DNA of 64,000 bases from Acidobacteriota bacterium (GTDB lineage Bacteria; Acidobacteriota; Terriglobia; Terriglobales; Acidobacteriaceae): positions 1-64,000 of the forward strand of contig JAKAFB010000010.1 in the NCBI GenBank assembly GCA_021818105.1. The letters run 5' to 3'. The notes beneath the pieces are model-generated. The model was given only the letters and a program-made list of their open reading frames with translations. It did no database searches and was not told where the DNA came from. This document shows positions 1,975 through 58,314 of this stretch, piece after piece. Both the position numbers and the translations under genes were made by a program. Position 1 is the stretch's first letter; each line of letters opens with the position of its first letter.

Positions 1975-2050
1975 GGGGCTGTAGCTCAGCTGGGAGAGCG
2001 CCTCGTTCGCAACGAGGAGGCCAGCGGTTCGATCCCGCTCAGCTCCACCA
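1975..2050 (+). tRNA. tRNA-Ala(CGC)
   Basis: GGGGCTGTAGCTCAGCTGGGAGAGCGCCTCGTTCGCAACGAGG...GGTTCGATCCCGCTCAGCTCCACCA; cloverleaf, CGC anticodon, encoded CCA. Confidence 0.95.
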
Positions 2051-36439: not shown

Positions 36440-36517
36440 TGGCGTCCCCGACGGGATTTGAACCCGTGTTATCGCCGTGAAAGGGCGGTGTCCTAGGCCG
36501 GGCTAGACGACGGGGAC
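36440..36517 (-). tRNA. tRNA-Glu(UUC), integration target
   Basis: Reverse complement GTCCCCGTCGTCTAGCCCGG...CCGCCCTTTCACGGCGA...GGGTTCAAATCCCGTCGGGGACGCCA. Confidence 0.95.
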
Positions 36518-41324: not shown

Positions 41325-41624
41325 TCACTGCTTTACCCGGTGAGCGACCAGGTGGTCCTTGATCCGGTAGTAGACTTGGCTGCTCAGCACCCCGCGCTCC
41401 AACAGGTCGAGCCTTGAATGGTATGGCCTGAAGCGCACAATACGTCCGGCCCAACTGCGCGCCATGCCTGGTACCGTCATCAACTCAGCCATGGAAGCAT
41501 GATTGATATCGATGCGTGCTTCCGGGATCTGGGCGTGTTGCTTGGCAGGCAGTTGTGGCAAGGCGTACATTGACGCCCAAACGATCAAGACTGCGCAGCA
41601 AGCTCCTGTTCGCAATTGATGCAT
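41325..41624 (-). CDS. ComEA-like helix-hairpin-helix protein
   Basis: RIDINHASMAELMTVPGMARSWAGRIVRFRPY. Confidence 0.6.
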   Translation of the reverse strand: MHQLRTGACCAVLIVWASMYALPQLPAKQHAQIPEARIDINHASMAELMTVPGMARSWAGRIVRFRPYHSRLDLLERGVLSSQVYYRIKDHLVAHRVKQ

Positions 41625-41794
41625 CCCCTTATTCTCTGATGCGCCAGAACTGTGCAGCAAGTCCCCGATCTCGAGCGGGCGGCTTCTCACCGCCAGTTGA
41701 CTGTCTGACCAATAAAGGGGAAAAGTCCAGATATACCTACAGCAAGCCATTATTTTCTGGCCTCGACGCGATAGATTTCTGTAAGAATTCAGGA

Positions 41795-43654
41795 ATGGCA
41801 ATATCCCCAATTGCACCCAACCCCAGCGCAGTACGAGGAAGTTTCTTCGGCAGAGCTCGCTTGATTCTGTTGGCCGGATTGGTCGCGCTGTTTGCGGCGG
41901 CTCTCTTGTTTTCCTGGTCCACGCGCGATGCCATGGCTCACCTGCCGTTCATGGGTACTTCCGGGAGCGCGTGCGTCCGCGCCAACAAGAGAAACCTGGT
42001 CGATCTCAGTCCCTGGCAAACGGCCCAGGCTATCGCGCCGTTGGCTGTATCGGCTGAAGAAGTAGAGTATGCACGTGAGGCGGAACGCCTGGCCGACCAC
42101 GATGTAGATCAGGCTTTCGCTGCCGCATTGCGGTTGGCAAACTTGCGTGACAAGAGCCGTGCTCTGACGGGCAAAGCGCTGGCGATTTCCAAGCGGATTG
42201 CCCAACTGCAGCAGATCCTCAAAGAGGATCAAGCTCTTGTGGATAGCCTGAGTGCGAAAGCGGGTCCTGGAGGGTTAAAGGTCAAGAGTGGTGGTCCACT
42301 ACCCACTAGCACTGACGAGCTTGACGTAGCCAAGGCGCAACTCGGACTTGATACGGACGAACTCGAGGATGCGGAGCGCGAACTCGAACGTGTGTCGGGC
42401 GACGAGAGTGTGCGGATACAGCAAGAGCTCAATGCCCATGAGGCATCGATGCGGCAGTACGATGAGGAAGCCAAGAACTACGCACCGATAGCCATGCTTT
42501 CGATCAAGAGGCATACAACACTGGCGGGACGAGCCAAGGCGTGGCTTGACCAGAACGATCGCTACAGTCTGCTGCAGCAGGCTTTGCAGCAGACGCAGAA
42601 TGATATCTCAAGCATGACTGCAAGCTACAACACCCTTGAGGCACAGGCCAATGCTGCGGAAACAACTACCGCGTCCGGCACCAGCACTGGCTCTGCGGCT
42701 CTGAGCAGCATTGGCGACCGTCGAGTCCTCAGGCAGGTGTTAAGCATCGATGACGATCGGCTGCAGACCAAGCAGCAGTTGGCGAATGTATACAGCAAAT
42801 GGTCGGCCCAGGTAATGTTGCAGCATCGCATCGTCCTCCACCTGATTCTGCAATCGCTCATGGTGATCCTTGCCATCACCATCTGCATTGTTGTTCTGGA
42901 TGCCATAGTGCGGCGCATAATGGCGCATCCTTCATTGGACCGCAGGCAAATACATACACTTCGCAGCGTTGTGCAGCTTGGCATTCAGGTGGTGGGCGCC
43001 GTGCTGATTCTGTTGGTTATCTTTGGCGTTCCCAAAGAAACGCCCACCATTCTTGGATTGGTTACAGCAGCCCTCACTATTGCGTTGCAGGACTTCATCA
43101 TCGCATTTTTTGGCTGGTTCGTTCTTATGGGAAAGAACGGCATTCGAGTAGGCGACTGGGTTGAAATCAACGGCGTTGGCGGCGAAGTAATTGAGGTGGG
43201 GCTATTCAATACCACACTGCTTGAGACGGGCACTCTCGCCGATAGAGGGCATCCAACAGGTCGGCGGATTACATTTATGAATAGCTTTGCGATACGTGGC
43301 CAATACTTCAACTTTTCTACCGCAGGACAATGGATGTGGGATGAAGTAACCGTCACATTGCCTGCTGCGGAAAATCCTGCTGGAGTAGTAGGCCGTATTC
43401 ATCAAGAAGTTCTGGATGACCTGAAGGAGAATACAAGGCTTGCCGAGCAGGAGTGGAATCGAGGAGTTCGTGGTGAACGTCTCAGACGCTTCAGTGCAAC
43501 TCCGGTCGTCAGTTTGCGACCATCCAGTGGAGGCATCGACCTTGAAGTTCGCTACATGACCCGAGCCTCTGAGCGGTTTGATGTGCGGAATCGCCTGAAT
43601 GAAAAATTGATTGAACTGCTTCGTCATGAGGGTCGGCCTGAACACGCTACTTGA
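41795..43654 (+). CDS. MscS-family mechanosensitive ion channel
   Basis: LTIALQDFIIAFFGWFVLMGKNGIRVGDWVEINGVGGEVIEVGLFNTTL. Confidence 0.88.
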   Translation: MAISPIAPNPSAVRGSFFGRARLILLAGLVALFAAALLFSWSTRDAMAHLPFMGTSGSACVRANKRNLVDLSPWQTAQAIAPLAVSAEEVEYAREAERLADHDVDQAFAAALRLANLRDKSRALTGKALAISKRIAQLQQILKEDQALVDSLSAKAGPGGLKVKSGGPLPTSTDELDVAKAQLGLDTDELEDAERELERVSGDESVRIQQELNAHEASMRQYDEEAKNYAPIAMLSIKRHTTLAGRAKAWLDQNDRYSLLQQALQQTQNDISSMTASYNTLEAQANAAETTTASGTSTGSAALSSIGDRRVLRQVLSIDDDRLQTKQQLANVYSKWSAQVMLQHRIVLHLILQSLMVILAITICIVVLDAIVRRIMAHPSLDRRQIHTLRSVVQLGIQVVGAVLILLVIFGVPKETPTILGLVTAALTIALQDFIIAFFGWFVLMGKNGIRVGDWVEINGVGGEVIEVGLFNTTLLETGTLADRGHPTGRRITFMNSFAIRGQYFNFSTAGQWMWDEVTVTLPAAENPAGVVGRIHQEVLDDLKENTRLAEQEWNRGVRGERLRRFSATPVVSLRPSSGGIDLEVRYMTRASERFDVRNRLNEKLIELLRHEGRPEHAT

Positions 43655-43655
43655 G

Positions 43656-43684
43656 TTGACACTCCACTAGCCAGCCGTTAGACT
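43656..43684 (+). promoter_or_regulatory. Putative his operon promoter
   Basis: TTGACA-17 nt-TAGACT, 10 bp upstream of leader ATG. Confidence 0.55.
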
Positions 43685-43693
43685 CAGAATGAG

Positions 43694-43774
43694 ATGCAGA
43701 TTCACCGCCATCACGGTCACCATCCCCACCATCATGGAAACTCCATGCCGGCGGAAGATCGTGGTCTGAAATAA
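43694..43774 (+). CDS. Histidine-rich leader peptide of the his operon
   Basis: MQIHRHHGHHPHHHGNSMPAEDRGLK*, 8 His, immediately before a terminator hairpin and hisI. Confidence 0.85.
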   Translation: MQIHRHHGHHPHHHGNSMPAEDRGLK

Positions 43775-43800
43775 GCGGTCGCTAGGATCAGACTCTACAG

Positions 43801-43833
43801 AAGCCCGCCGGCAGCCAAGCCGACGGGCTTTTT
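43801..43833 (+). terminator. his operon attenuator terminator
   Basis: AAGCCCG-c-CGGC-agccaa-GCCG-a-CGGGCTT followed by TTT. Confidence 0.85.
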
Positions 43834-43889
43834 CATCGCTTTTGAAAAGGTGAGACGAGAATCAGAAAGCCAGGAGAACCTTAAGCAAC

Positions 43890-44252
43890 ATGACAACAAC
43901 AATTGACTTTGAGAAGATGGACGGTCTCATCCCAGGCATTGTGCAGGATGCGCGGACCGGCGAAGTGCTGATGTTGGGCTTTCTGAACCCCACCAGCTAT
44001 GCCAAAACTATGGATACAGGCTTTGTAACCTTCTGGAGCCGCACGCGCCAGAAGCTGTGGATGAAGGGTGAAACAAGCGGCAATCGTTTGCGGGTTGTCT
44101 CCGTCTCCACGGACTGCGACAACGATACGCTGCTATTCCGTGTTGAAGTGGAAGGCGACGGACTGGTCTGCCATGAAGGTACCGTAAGCTGCTTTACCAG
44201 ACCCCTGGCACTGGACGCAGGCAATGCAAGCGCGGAGGTCGCCCGTGGCTAG
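43890..44252 (+). CDS. hisI: Phosphoribosyl-AMP cyclohydrolase
   Basis: [54 protein letters not shown]. Confidence 0.96.
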
Positions 44253-45120
44253 CAAACTTCGTCTTGGCTTGCCCAAAGGCAGTCTTCAGGAGGCGACGAT
44301 CTCATTGTTTCGTCGCGCGGGCTGGAACATCTACGCAGACGGGCGCTCCTATTTTCCTTCAATTGATGACAGCGAAATTGAATGTATGCTGATTCGCGCG
44401 CAGGAGATGGCACGCTATGTTGACCACGGTGTGCTGGATGCCGGACTGACCGGTATCGACTGGGTGGTTGAAAGTGGTCTCGACGTGACCAGTGTGACGA
44501 CGCTGACGTATGCCAAGCAGAGCCGCCGAAAAGTGCGCTGGGTGCTGGCAGTACCCGAGGCAAGCGGCTTTGAAAAAGCTGAGGATTTGGAAGGCAAAAT
44601 CATCGCTACCGAGCTTGTTGAGGTTACAAAGCGCTATTTCGCAAGCAAGGGTGTAAACGTGAAGGTGGAATTCAGTTGGGGAGCAACTGAGGTCAAGCCG
44701 CCAATGCTGGCCGATGCAATTGTGGAAGTCACGGAAACCGGCAGCTCGCTCAAGGCAAACCACCTGAAAATCATCGATACGGTCATGGAAAGTGAGACGC
44801 ATCTGATTGCCGGAAAGCCTGCACTGGCCGATGCATGGAAGCGAGAAAAAATTGACCAGATTGCACTGATGCTGCGCGGAGCTATTGATGCGCAATCGCA
44901 GGTTGGCCTCATGCTGAATGTTCTGCGCAACAACCTGGACGGCGTACTCGCTGTGCTCCCTGCGCTGAACTCGCCGACTGTTTCGCAGCTCAGTAATTCC
45001 GAGTGGGTTGCGGTGAACACCATCGTTGAGGAGGGGATAGCACGCGATGTGATACCACGCCTCAAAGCTGCTGGCGCTACAGGCATCGTTGAATATCCCT
45101 TGAACAAAGTAGTGTTGTAG
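44245..45120 (+). CDS. hisG: ATP phosphoribosyltransferase
   Basis: [33 protein letters not shown], long form with C-terminal regulatory domain; GTG start with GGAGG. Confidence 0.95.
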
Positions 45121-45133
45121 CCTGGGGCGAACC

Positions 45134-46417
45134 ATGCGATTGATCCGTACGAAAGGAAGAGGACGTACCCAAGCGGCTGAACTGATTGCCACCTTGGAAG
45201 CGCGTGGCGGCGCGGCATTGGACGCCGTGCTGCCGCGAGTGCAACGTATCGTGGCAGATGTACGCAGCAAGAATGACAGCGCACTGCTCCGCTACGCCAG
45301 GCAGTTTGATGGGCTTCCTGATGTCTCACAACTGCGCATCTCGCAAGCAGAGATGGAGTCTGCATGGGATGCGCTGACGCCCGATCTGCGGGATGCTTTG
45401 TCAACAGCTGCCAGTCAGATTCGTACCTTCGCGCAGCGCCAGATGCCATCCAGCTGGCGGATGTCTCCAATGCGGGGTCTCACTACCGGCCAGATCGTCA
45501 GTCCTCTTGGCGCGGTCGGATGTTATGTGCCCAGCGGCCGTCACCCTCTCCCCTCCACGCTGTTGATGACAGTGATCCCAGCGCAGGTCGCTGGTGTGCA
45601 GCGGATTATAGCAGTCTCGCCAAAGCCTGCTCAGGAGACTCTGGCAGCGGCACACATGCTTGGACTGTCGGAGTTCTACCGCTTGGGCGGCGCGCATGCA
45701 GTGGCCGCTTTGGCCTATGGGACCGCGACGATTCCGCGCGTCGACAAGATCGTTGGCCCAGGCAATCTGTATGTCACCGCCGCAAAGCGCCTTGTGGCAT
45801 TTGACTGCGCTATCGATATGCTTGCTGGCCCAACTGAAATTGTTGTCACCAGCGAGCGCGGTAAGCCAGCCGACATTGCATCCGACATTGTGGCGCAAGC
45901 CGAGCATGATCCTGACGCCCTTGCCATCTTCATCACAACTCGCTCCGAACTGGCGCAGGAAGTGGCAGCCGAAGTGAGACTTCGCAGTCGTGAGAATGCT
46001 GTCGCACGAGTTACATTGCAACGCAATGCATTTGCAATTGTTGCCGGAGATCTGCGCGAGGCGCGCGACATTACCAACAGGCTGGCTCCAGAGCACCTTA
46101 CCGTAGATGCAGCCAGCGATCTCAAGTGGGTAAGGAATGCAGGGTCGGTCTTCGTGGGACGCTGGTCTGCCCAGCCCATGGGCGATTACATCTCCGGTCC
46201 GAACCATACATTACCTACCGGCGCGATGGCGCGCGTTCGCGGCGGCCTGAGCGTCAACGACTTCGTCAAGTTGATCACTGTGCAGGAATACAACTCCAGG
46301 GCCATGCATTATCTCGGCCCCAAAGCCGCTTTACTGGCTCAGGCAGAGGGCCTCACGGGACACGCTGAAGCAATTCGCACTCGCCTGCGAGGGAAACGAA
46401 GAGAGGAGATGGCTTGA
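45134..46417 (+). CDS. hisD: Histidinol dehydrogenase
   Basis: GCYVPSGRHPLPSTLLMTVIPAQVAGV, VDKIVGPGNLYVTAAKR, GPTEIVV. Confidence 0.97.
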   Translation: MRLIRTKGRGRTQAAELIATLEARGGAALDAVLPRVQRIVADVRSKNDSALLRYARQFDGLPDVSQLRISQAEMESAWDALTPDLRDALSTAASQIRTFAQRQMPSSWRMSPMRGLTTGQIVSPLGAVGCYVPSGRHPLPSTLLMTVIPAQVAGVQRIIAVSPKPAQETLAAAHMLGLSEFYRLGGAHAVAALAYGTATIPRVDKIVGPGNLYVTAAKRLVAFDCAIDMLAGPTEIVVTSERGKPADIASDIVAQAEHDPDALAIFITTRSELAQEVAAEVRLRSRENAVARVTLQRNAFAIVAGDLREARDITNRLAPEHLTVDAASDLKWVRNAGSVFVGRWSAQPMGDYISGPNHTLPTGAMARVRGGLSVNDFVKLITVQEYNSRAMHYLGPKAALLAQAEGLTGHAEAIRTRLRGKRREEMA

Positions 46418-47508
46418 GCAATCCAAACGATCTCTGTCCGAAGCCTCGTTCACGCGTGAGTGCGATGAAGGAGTATCATCCTCCGCTCGGCAACCGTGAT
46501 GCGCTTCGCCTCGACTTTAACGAAAATACGCTGGCCTGCTCTCCCATGGTGCGCGAGGTGCTCAGCCGCATCTCAACGGGAGACTTGACGCGTTACCCCG
46601 AGCGTGAACCTGTGGAGGCAATCGTTGCCTCACACCTTGGAGTCAGTCCGCAACAGGTTGTGCTGACAAACGGTGTCGATGAAGCGATCCATGTGCTCTT
46701 CGAGACATTCCTGGACGCTGGAGATGAGCTGTTGTTGCCCGTGCCAACGTACACAATGTACGAGGTCTACGCCTCTGCAACGGATGCGGGCGTGGTAACC
46801 GTCCAGGCCGAGGGCGACCTGCAATTCCCGTTCGATCGCCTGCTTGCCGCTGTCACTCCGCGTACCAAACTCATCGCCATCGCCAATCCAAACAGCCCCT
46901 CCGGCAGTGTCGCCAAGCGCGAACAATTGCTTGAGATTGCCCGTTGTGCGCCGCATGCTGTCGTGTTGGTCGATGAAGCCTATTTTCATTTCCATGGCGA
47001 GACAGTGATGGACCAGGTTGGATCCACCCCGAATCTTGTTGTGGCCCGCACATTTTCCAAAGCTTACGGTCTAGCCGGTCTGCGCGTTGGCTTGCTAGCC
47101 GGATCCTTGCAATTGATAAGCTGGGTAAGGCGCGTCCTGTCGCCTTACAGCGTGAACTCAATTGCACTCGCTTGTCTTCCTGCCGCGCTTGAGGATGACG
47201 CCTATCTTGACTGGTATGTTGGCGAAGTCCTCCAGGCACGGAGGGAGTTTGAGGCTGCCCTGGATGCTGCCGGCCTGCGCCGTTGGCCCAGTAGCGCTAA
47301 CTTTGTCCTCGTTGACGTGGGAGAGTGTCACAGGGAATTCACAGAGCGGATGCGCAATGCAGGTGTGCTTGTCCGCGACCGCTCCAGCGATCCCGGGTGC
47401 GGTGGCTGTGTGCGTATTACCATCGGAACCCGCGAACAGATGCGGCATGCGGCGGCAGCTTTGGAATCCGCGCTGGCGGATTTGCGGCCGGGAAGAAAGA
47501 AGATATGA
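46414..47508 (+). CDS. hisC: Histidinol-phosphate aminotransferase
   Basis: [31 protein letters not shown]. Confidence 0.94.
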
Positions 47509-48134
47509 AATCCTCCAGCAGAAGAGACACATCGCATAAAAAGGCGCTGCGCCGTGCGAGCCTCGAGCGCAATACGACTGAGACGCGCATCTCCATTCGC
47601 CTCACAATTGAGGGGCGTGGGCAATACAAGATCGCCACGGGCATCCGCTTCTTTGACCACATGCTGGAGCTCTTCGCGCGGCACGGCGCGTTCGATCTGG
47701 AACTCCAATGCAAGGGTGATCTGGATGTGGACCAGCATCACACGGTGGAGGATGTTGGCATTGCACTCGGAGAAGCCTTCGATAGAGCACTGGGCGACAA
47801 ACGCGGCATTCTGCGTGCTGGCTATTTTCTTATGCCCATGGATGAGACGCTGGCGATTGCCGCGGTGGACATGAGTGGAAGGGCAGCATTTGCCGTAGAT
47901 ACACAAGTGCGCACACGGCTAGTTGGCGACCTGCAGACTGAGCTTGTTACTGATTTCTTTGAGGGCTTTGCGCGTGGTGCCCGTGCCAACGTACATGTGA
48001 AGACGATGTATGGGCGCTCGAATCACCATAAGATTGAGGCAATATTCAAGGCATTCGCAAGAGCACTTCGCGTGGCGTGTGCGCGCGACAAGCAACTCGG
48101 CGAGATGCTGCCTTCCACCAAGGGATTGCTCTAA
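47505..48134 (+). CDS. hisB: Imidazoleglycerol-phosphate dehydratase
   Basis: [41 protein letters not shown] overlap with hisC. Confidence 0.96.
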
Positions 48135-48739
48135 TGCGTGTCACAGTAATTGATTACAAGGCAGGCAACCTGACTTCTGTGCTCAAGGCGCTTCATCATC
48201 TTGGCGCTGAAACCATAGTGGCAGATGGGCCTGAGCCGATTGAAACAGCAGACCGAATCGTCCTTCCCGGGGTAGGTAACTTTGCAGCAACGGAACGCCT
48301 GGATGCAACAGGCATCACCTCTGCCATACGCAATGCGATCAACCTCTCTATACCATTTCTGGGCATTTGCGTTGGCATGCAATGGCTTTATGCAGGCTCA
48401 AGCGAGGCGCCGGAGCAGGACGGGCTTGGCTACTTTCCTGAAATGTGTACGCGCTTCAAAGAGGGTGCTGAGAAGGTTCCTCACGTAGGCTGGAATTCCT
48501 TGGATGTACGCCCTGACTCACCCCTGCTTGCAGGAATAAGCTCTGGCGAGTATGTCTATTTTACGCACTCATACAGGGCGCCTGTATCTGCGGATACATC
48601 AGCCACCACGCACTACATCGAACCATTTGCCGCAGCTGTTGAGCGTGGCCATGTGATGGGCGTGCAGTTTCATCCTGAAAAGTCCGGGGAAGCCGGTCTC
48701 AGGATTCTTCGCAATTTTCTAGCCTGGCGGAGCGCATAA
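48134..48739 (+). CDS. hisH: Imidazole glycerol phosphate synthase subunit HisH
   Basis: [37 protein letters not shown]. Confidence 0.96.
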
Positions 48740-48744
48740 GAAGC

Positions 48745-49524
48745 ATGTTGACGAAACGTATCATTGGCTGTCTCGATGTGCACGGTGGCCGTGTTGTAAA
48801 AGGTGTGCAGTTTGTGGATATCGTGGATGCAGGTGACCCGGCTGAGCTGGCCGCGCGCCATGCACGCGAGGGCGCGGATGAAATCGTCTTGCTGGACATT
48901 ACGGCGACGCACGAGCAGCGGCAGACGCTGCTGGACACAGTGCGCCGTACAGCGCGCGAGCTTTTTATACCCTTTACTGTGGGCGGTGGCATCCGCAGTG
49001 CTGATGATGCAGCGCAAGTTTTCGACGCCGGGGCAGACAAGGTGAGCGTAAATTCGGCTGCAATCGCTTCTCCCTCACTCATTGATGCGATTGGCAGAAG
49101 CTTCGGCTCGCAGGCTGTAGTCGTTGCAATCGATGCACGACGGGATCCTGACGCAGACGATCCGGTGATTGATGCCCAGGTGTTCGTCCAGGGAGGCAGA
49201 AAGCCGGCTGGGCGCCGCGTTGTGGAGTGGGCGCGTGAGGCCGAGGCGCGCGGTGCGGGCGAAATCCTGCTCACATCGATGGATGCTGACGGGACGCGCG
49301 CAGGCTTTGATTGCGATTTAACTGCTGCCGTGAGTGACGCCCTGCGGATTCCCGTGATAGCTTCCGGCGGTGCCGGAACAGTGAATCACTTTGTCGATGT
49401 CTTTGGCCGGGGCAGGGCGGATGCCGCACTGGCTGCAAGCATTTTTCACTTTGGTCTTTCAAGCGCGCGCGCGTTGAAAGAAGAACTGGCCAAGGCCGGT
49501 GTTTCCGTGAGGTTGCCATGCTGA
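48745..49524 (+). CDS. hisF: Imidazole glycerol phosphate synthase subunit HisF
   Basis: [50 protein letters not shown]. Confidence 0.97.
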
Positions 49525-50195
49525 TTCCTTCCATCGATCTCTTGGGCGGCCGTATCGTTCAACTGGTACAGGGCGAAAAATTACGGCTTGCCTTTGATGA
49601 CTTTGAATACTGGATTACGAAGTTTGCACGCTATCCCCTAGTGCAGTTGATCGATCTTGATGCAGCCATGCGCCAGGGCGACAATACAAAGCTGGTCGAG
49701 CAGATTGCGCATCGCTTGCCCTGCCAGGTTGGCGGAGGCATTCGCTCCGTTGAGCATGCCCAGCGCGTTCTCCATGCCGGTGCCCGACGCGTGATTGTGG
49801 GTTCGGCGCTCTTTACGGAGGAGGGGGAGGTCAATATCGAAGCTGCCGCTGAACTCCAAACCAATCTCGGAGCTGATCGCGTCGTTGCAGGAATCGACAC
49901 CAAGCAAGGACGCATAGCAGTGAAAGGGTGGAAGTCCCAGGTGCAGCTTACGCCCGACGAAGCAATCCCGCAATTGGACCCATTTGTCTCAGCTTTTCTT
50001 TATACTCACGTGGATGGCGAGGGTATGATGCAGGGTTTCCCTCTTGAAATTGCCGCGCGCCTGCGTAAGCTCACTAACAAACAACTGATTGTTGCCGGGG
50101 GGATCCGCAATCAACAGGAGATTGACACTCTCGATGCCCTGGGTGCGGATGCAGTGGTGGGGATGGCAGTGTACACCGAGGCCCTGGCCGTCTGA
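49518..50195 (+). CDS. hisA: Phosphoribosylformimino-5-aminoimidazole carboxamide ribotide isomerase (divergent HisA)
   Basis: [37 protein letters not shown]; last gene of his operon. Confidence 0.88.
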
Positions 50196-50309
50196 CGCAT
50201 CGCGCGGTCAGCAAAATCGGTCTCTCCTGTATCTGGTTCCGTGCAAGACGCTATCATCTATGCGCAGGCAGAATGCTTTCGTTGTGCTCGTTCGAAAGGA
50301 TACAAGGCA

Positions 50310-51482
50310 ATGACTTCACGGAAGAACGGGATTCGACTGGCCAAGCGGCTGGATGAGGTAGGATTTTCAGGCATCGTTCAGATTCGCAATCAGGTAATGG
50401 CGATGCGGGGCCAGGGGATCCAAGTACATGCCCTCCACGGGGGCGAGCCTTTCTTCGAAACCCCTGATTTCATCAAGTACGCGGCCGTCAAGGCATTGAC
50501 GGACAATCAGACGCACTATGCCCCTTCCTCGGGGCTGCTGCCGCTGCGCAACGCATTGGCGGAAAAGCTTGCCAGAAAAAACCGCCTACAGGTGAGCGCC
50601 GATGAAGTTATTGTGACTGTTGGCGGTTCCCAGGCCTTGTACGCAGCGTTTCAGAGCGTACTCGACCCTGGTGATGATGCACTGATCTTTTCTCCATATT
50701 GGACTCCCATCGGCGATCTTGTGACGGGTGCGCAAGGTCGCCCCCTGTTGGTGCCGACGGCAACAGCCCGGCGAAATGGCATACGCAAGACTCTCGAACA
50801 GTTTTCAACTCCTAAAACGCGCGCAATTTACTTCAACACACCGCAAAATCCAAGCGGACTTGTTTTCACGCACGCAGAGGCTGAGGAAGTTGCGGCATTT
50901 GCAAAAGAACGGGATCTCATTGTGATTGCCGATGAGGCTTATGAAGACCTGGTTTATGAAGGTGAGCACGTTTCCATCGCATCGTTGCCGGGCATGGCGG
51001 AAAGAACAATTACTGCGTTTACCTTCTCAAAGACCTACGCCATGACGGGTTGGCGCGCAGGATATGCGGTGGCGAAAGAGCCGTTTATGACCGCGCTACG
51101 CAAAATCGTGCTGTATTCCACGAACGGCGTTGCAACGCCTGTGCAGTATGCGATGATGCAGGCTCTTACCACGCCCGAGAGTGAGATTGCCGCACGGCGT
51201 GAGGAGTATCGAAAGCGTCGTGACTTGATTGTGAAAGCACTGAATGAGGTTGGCTGTGAATGTGAGTTACCAGCCGGCGCGTTTTACGCATTCCCAAACA
51301 TGGAAAGGATCAGCAAGAACAGCGTGAAAGCGGCTCAAATCCTGCTGGACAAGGCTCACATAGCCACGATTCCTGGCTCGGTCTTTGGTGCGCAGGGAGA
51401 AGGGCATTTGCGCTTTGGATACGCAATTCCACTGGAGCAGATCGAGGATTGCATTGCTGCGCTGCGCAAGTTTCTTGCCTAG
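50310..51482 (+). CDS. Pyridoxal phosphate-dependent aminotransferase, class I/II
   Basis: TPQNPSGLVFTHAEAEEVAAFAKERDLIVIADEAYEDLVY, TFSKTYAMTGWRAGY. Confidence 0.93.
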   Translation: MTSRKNGIRLAKRLDEVGFSGIVQIRNQVMAMRGQGIQVHALHGGEPFFETPDFIKYAAVKALTDNQTHYAPSSGLLPLRNALAEKLARKNRLQVSADEVIVTVGGSQALYAAFQSVLDPGDDALIFSPYWTPIGDLVTGAQGRPLLVPTATARRNGIRKTLEQFSTPKTRAIYFNTPQNPSGLVFTHAEAEEVAAFAKERDLIVIADEAYEDLVYEGEHVSIASLPGMAERTITAFTFSKTYAMTGWRAGYAVAKEPFMTALRKIVLYSTNGVATPVQYAMMQALTTPESEIAARREEYRKRRDLIVKALNEVGCECELPAGAFYAFPNMERISKNSVKAAQILLDKAHIATIPGSVFGAQGEGHLRFGYAIPLEQIEDCIAALRKFLA

Positions 51483-58073: not shown

Positions 58074-58107
58074 CTCGCGCGTCGATTGGAGAAGGCCGTT
58101 CGCTTCG

Positions 58108-58183
58108 GAAACTTCCCACGCCGGTATTATCCGGATCGGGTTCGAGGGTATTTCTCAGCCCCACACTCTGGAGCACCCCTGTT
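58108..58183 (-). ncRNA. TPP (THI element) riboswitch
   Basis: Minus strand AGGGGTGCTCCAGAGTGTGGGGCTGAGAAATACCCTCGAACCCGATCCGGATAATACCGGCGTGGGAAGT, matches conserved GGGGTGC / CTGAGA / ACCCGATCCGGATAATACCGGCG blocks. Confidence 0.95.
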
Positions 58184-58314
58184 TCAATATCTAAATTGAA
58201 GCACCGGCAGTTGGGAAAAAGCAAATCGGTCTTTCGCATTGCAGGACAAAGAAAAGCCCCGCTTCAACCAGGTTAAGCCTGGCCGAAGTGGGGCTTGCTT
58301 TGCGTGCTGACCGG

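Follow-up and report, generated by a model that had tools for sequence, protein, structure and literature searches.

Upstream of the histidine biosynthesis operon hisIGDCBHFA we found what is, with a probability of about 0.94, a ribosome-mediated transcription attenuator, and in all features testable here the predicted element is a classical his attenuator. The window (the whole 64,000-nt stretch of DNA that was analysed) comes from a genome of the Occallatibacter/Terracidiphilus group of the Acidobacteriaceae (class Terriglobia, phylum Acidobacteriota). Our assignment is based on the leader ORF, the promoter sequence, the alternative pairings, their conservation and co-evolution, and on computed switching, whereas we infer where transcription starts, that the leader is translated leaderless, that transcription terminates and that it responds to histidine.

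The gene order of the operon, proposed in the original prediction, was confirmed by NCBIfam models. All genes lie on the plus strand: hisI (phosphoribosyl-AMP cyclohydrolase, the first structural gene, 43890-44252), hisG (44224-45120), hisD (45134-46417), hisC (46414-47508), hisB (47547-48134, an approximate start, with the model match beginning at codon 75 of the ORF at 47325-48134), hisH (48077-48739, the true start of which may be near 48140), hisF (48745-49524) and hisA (49518-50195). Directly downstream of hisA, an aspartate-aminotransferase-like PLP enzyme is encoded (50241-51482, plus strand), possibly in the same operon. An MscS-like gene (41516-43654) lies upstream of the leader. Elsewhere the window holds a TPP riboswitch at 58096-58190 (minus strand), scoring above the Rfam gathering score, and two tRNA genes (1975-2047, plus strand; 36443-36517, minus strand).

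The leader ORF (43694-43774, plus strand, ATG to TAA) encodes a hisL-type peptide, MQIHRHHGHHPHHHGNSMPAEDRGLK, as read directly from its translation. Exactly as had been claimed, eight His codons, i.e. codons for the product of the operon, fall within 11 codons (43703-43735; residues 4-14 of the peptide), and this stretch also contributes the 5' arm of the protector (1:2) hairpin described below. It is the sole short ORF (8-45 aa) of the window with at least six His per 12 residues. No such His-dense short ORF occurred in 20 Markov resamples of the window; a His density of this kind is not expected by chance. Pfam and NCBIfam models gave no match to the peptide.

To follow the leader among relatives, 38 congeneric loci were read, two of which had too little upstream sequence and were left out. 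All of the remaining 36 have the His-run ORF, the promoter, the antiterminator and the terminator before hisI. Among the named genomes with this leader core are those of Terracidiphilus (now Occallatibacter) gabretensis S55 and of Occallatibacter savannae AB23. The genus consensus of the peptide is MQxxRHHGHHHHHGTxMPADCHGLx, and conservation that extends to the C-terminal MPADCHGL is what one would expect if the ORF made a functional small His-rich (e.g. metal-binding) peptide, followed by an ordinary intergenic terminator. Outside the genus, however, the His run alone is kept in the peptide, while the C-terminus varies along with the RNA pairing that the same stretch encodes. Among the congeners, codon 4 stands for any of eight residues, yet its third base is C in 36/36; this is supporting rather than decisive, because codon 3 is also mostly C-ending. 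In one congener (L006, 1898-2036, minus strand) a frameshift just past the His run leaves the RNA segments intact, with a stop still close by in the shifted frame, which is a natural hint against protein-level selection of the C-terminal peptide, or a draft-genome error. Given also that the ORF lies ahead of the first his gene, and that the terminator after it has an alternative pairing whose partners co-evolve, we regard a functional peptide as highly improbable and retain attenuation as the role of the ORF.

The promoter proposed originally, TTGACA and TAGACT separated by 17 nt, was recovered at its claimed position (43656-43684) by a promoter scan. Its -35 element (43656-43661) reads TTGAC[A/T] in all 36 congeneric loci, and the arrangement of TTGACA, a spacer of 16-18 nt and TANNNT recurs in nearly all of them. 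The -10 element (TAGACT, a TANNNT motif, 43679-43684) ends 9 nt before the leader ATG, and from this spacing transcription would start at 43690-43692, which would leave a 5' UTR of some 2-4 nt. Leaderless genes, estimated at 13% in the three Acidobacteria genomes studied, are marked according to published work by a TA-rich signal roughly 10 bp ahead of the start (PMC3160421); we took from the same work the combination of a -10 element situated some 10 nt ahead of the start codon with the lack of a Shine-Dalgarno motif as indicating a leaderless mRNA. The distance from the end of a TANNNT motif to the leader start is 7-11 nt in 108 of 126 loci, as against 3/126 with such a motif in a control stretch 22-26 nt before it, and a Shine-Dalgarno-like motif precedes the leader in one locus of the 126, but hisI in 56/107. 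Because of this spacing and the near absence of Shine-Dalgarno-like motifs, the leader ORF is predicted to be leaderless, i.e. to start at or near the 5' end of the RNA. The earlier suggestion of a nearly leaderless leader is thus borne out as a sequence feature of the whole lineage. In loci L149-L156 and others of class family f6, TTGACA is mostly absent and an extended -10 element (TGnTANNNT) is frequent; here another promoter type seems to have been adopted, with the leaderless spacing retained.

A predicted intrinsic terminator lies between the leader ORF and hisI. It consists of a 5' arm (segment 3, AGCCCGCCGGC, 43802-43812, which can pair with either segment 2 or segment 4), the loop AGCCAA, a 3' arm (segment 4, GCCGACGGGCT, 43819-43829) and the T run TTTTT (43829-43833), and folds with one mismatch at -18.8 kcal/mol. 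The hairpin and T run had been placed at 43801-43833, and we see them at 43802-43833. A generic promoter/terminator scanner listed no terminator at 43802-43833, probably due to the internal mismatch; we nevertheless accept it, because folding and its conservation in 36/36 congeners support it. Over all 126 loci, a terminator candidate is present in 121, and in 118 it is both strong and downstream of the leader stop. Throughout the class it begins 23-31 nt past the leader stop, the median distance being 24-28 nt in all class-level groups. These features also bear on the idea that the leader peptide acts on hisI translation or via Rho instead of an intrinsic terminator, for which there is the precedent that some attenuators sequester the ribosome binding site (PMC9413887). 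Here a T run follows the hairpin in nearly all loci, and the hairpin stops about 55 nt short of the hisI start, off its ribosome binding site, so that we give such a mode of action very little credence compared with transcription attenuation.

Segment 2, the 5' strand of the antiterminator, is UGCCGGCGG (43746-43754). As had been pointed out, GCCGGCGG (43747-43754) is the exact reverse complement of CCGCCGGC (43805-43812); a U-A pair between 43746 and 43813 extends the helix to 9 bp in the window. Since the antiterminator (-30.9 kcal/mol, z -3.0, from folding of the window locus) uses the 5' arm of the terminator, the two structures are mutually exclusive, as in other attenuators. Across the congeneric loci, UGCCGGCGG and CCCGCCGGC are essentially invariant, and the terminator 3' arm varies (GCCAGCGGG, GCTGGCGGG, GCCGACGGG and others). 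An invariant 5' arm beside a drifting 3' arm is to be expected, because the former serves two partners and the latter one. Antiterminator covariation is not seen within the genus because the 2:3 pairing is nearly invariant there. Around the leader stop codon (43761-43784 in the window, and in congeners; genus only), a conserved UGGCC on the 5' side and GGCCA on the 3' side could pair into a small hairpin, which would lie within the antiterminator loop; the same UGGCC also takes part in the 1:2 hairpin.

Outside the genus, we paired the post-His region of each locus with its own terminator 5' arm and with the arms of other loci (2000 permutations). Own 2:3 duplexes were stronger than permuted ones in the family (z about -3.8), in the order and class (z -6.7) and in the phylum set (z -4.1), and in none of the three did any of the 2000 permutations reach values as low as those of the own pairs. 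The permutation removes relatedness incompletely, and control regions (promoter, stop-to-terminator and post-terminator), meant to gauge what remains of it, gave z values of -1.9 to +3.8 with no comparable gain. Single-locus 2:3 shuffle tests in other classes were passed by 1/15 loci, where the pooled permutation was positive. In loci of the family, both partners have changed in two antiterminator pairs, by G-C/G-U/A-U exchanges with G-U intermediates. By these comparisons, the antiterminator partners co-evolve outside the genus.

The third pairing would protect segment 2. RNAalifold, run unprompted on the 36 congeneric sequences, returned a long His-codon hairpin and the terminator. In this 1:2 hairpin (alignment columns 33-43 with 51-61, and 14-18 with 68-72) the His codons pair with 43744-43754 and GCCAU with AUGGC; its 3' side spans 43744-43765 and pairs with 43707-43736. 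Of its cells, 96% are paired in the 36 sequences. Three congeneric loci show a compensatory change from CAT:ATG to CAC:GTG, and as many double-change cells were reached in 1/500 shuffles. Because single-locus shuffle tests for 1:2 were weak, we adopted the pooled permutation with control regions, which indicates co-evolution in the order and class (z -6.0), less so in the family (z -2.7), and does not support the pairing in the set from other classes of the phylum (z -1.3). The protector helix is thus backed by compensatory changes in the genus and by co-evolution in the class. A shorter version had been put forward, in which CCGCC (43705-43709) inside the His run pairs with GGCGG (43750-43754). 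Both motifs are there, and nearly all congeners could form this helix, but the consensus favours the longer His-codon hairpin as the 1:2 structure, with which the short helix shares bases. Both predicted versions place the His codons in the protector arm, as a stall-sensitive switch needs.

According to our proposal, RNA polymerase would start at the leader ATG or a few bases before it, and a ribosome would load on the leaderless start and translate the His run. With ample His-tRNA, the ribosome would reach the stop codon; segment 2 would be covered and then captured in the 1:2 hairpin behind the ribosome, leaving segment 3 free for the 3:4 terminator, and transcription would end near 43833. 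If His-tRNA is scarce, the ribosome would stall on the His codons and thereby occupy the 5' arm of the 1:2 hairpin, which these codons make up. Segment 2 (43746-43754), just past the leading edge of the stalled ribosome, would then pair with segment 3 (43805-43813), no terminator would form and the his genes would be transcribed. Zero translation would favour the terminator state. In masked foldings, which are equilibrium folds and not kinetic simulations, the minimum-energy fold with 43746-43840 free contains the antiterminator and lacks the terminator, and the terminator forms with no ribosome or with one at the stop codon. Leaving 43746 and what follows free represents a ribosome halted at the last His codons, given a footprint that reaches about 15 nt past the P site.

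The leader extends well beyond the genus. A His-rich leader of the same layout precedes hisI in all 25 loci from other genera of the family, in 10/10 from another family of the same order and in 36 of 42 from the remaining families of the class; outside the class it was found in at least 19 of 40 loci, before hisI or hisG, whichever leads the operon. Between families the sequence beyond the His run is not conserved, but the geometry is. The refuting outcome named beforehand, a lack of conservation of the His run or of the pairings in relatives, thus did not occur: leader ORF, antiterminator and terminator persist at the level of genus, family and class and in some other lineages of the phylum, and pairing partners co-evolve. 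Where the leader seems to be missing from class and phylum loci, hisI is in part an internal gene of the operon, a solitary gene or located at the end of a contig. Loci L160 and L161 (class family f13) and several from other classes, e.g. L187, L191 and L198-L202, had no His leader above threshold; the leader may have been lost there, or the his genes may be controlled in another way. A scan for the leader-core pattern in one genome per species (85,488 species) gave 59 matches, 56 of them in Acidobacteria. In 54 of these 56, hisI follows on the same strand 117-228 nt downstream, and the other two lie at the ends of contigs. Outside the Acidobacteria, the three matches fell inside unrelated genes and were rejected as chance. 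That the hairpin is a constitutive terminator of the MscS-like gene, with the His ORF arising by chance, would suit its position downstream of that gene and upstream of hisI, but a conserved promoter separates this gene from the hairpin, leader and pairing are kept across families and none of the 20 resampled windows held such an ORF, which makes this explanation practically negligible beside attenuation.

Consistent Trp- or Leu-rich leaders were absent before trpE and leuA in 16 relatives each (L215-L246), and by this crude test leader-peptide control looks his-specific among his, trp and leu.

The element shares with hisL of E. coli and Salmonella (Rfam RF00514, His_leader) the His-codon leader, the alternative antiterminator, the intrinsic terminator and the his biosynthesis operon. 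In contrast to hisL, it has no match to Rfam or leader-peptide protein models, its operon begins with hisI, the leader is predicted to be leaderless, and the layout is a simple 1:2/2:3/3:4 one in which the His codons form part of the 1:2 hairpin. RF00514 matched neither the window at the gathering threshold nor 43550-44050 up to E = 10, and a T-box model found nothing in the window; the Rfam matches of 43550-44050 at E up to 10 were chance hits, all on the minus strand. A leaderless attenuator has precedent for another amino acid, because the Sinorhizobium meliloti trpL attenuator RNA begins with the ATG of its leader peptide (PMC7298713); that system senses Trp, not His, belongs to the Alphaproteobacteria and has an experimental start, where ours is predicted. 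Outside the Proteobacteria, His-leader attenuators have been described in Firmicutes for hisZ/hisS* (PMC2965389) and for the his operon and transporter genes (PMC9413887). They likewise have a short ORF with a His-codon run before terminator/antiterminator hairpins, but concern another phylum and partly other genes, with three to five consecutive His codons. For Acidobacteria, attenuators were in 2010 almost all without assigned function (PMC2965389), and we found no his leader in the open-licence full-text literature, though the 2010 comparative survey by Lopatovskaya and colleagues (cited in PMC4833913) may list cases. The element is thus of a known kind, in a phylum for which we found no earlier description, and its predicted leaderless start is an interesting variant.

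We lean slightly towards the view that a leaderless His-codon attenuator, with its own start codon as the 5' end of the RNA, is an ancestral, phylum-wide control of the his operon. To our knowledge, leaderless attenuation is known for Trp and not for His. If true, ribosome loading would be synchronised with transcription, without a Shine-Dalgarno step. The attenuator would provide a concrete amino-acid-sensing RNA switch for an abundant, poorly tractable soil phylum, identify a short ORF together with the operon it controls in more than 100 genomes, and offer a natural series of leaderless attenuators for studying ribosome loading in attenuation.
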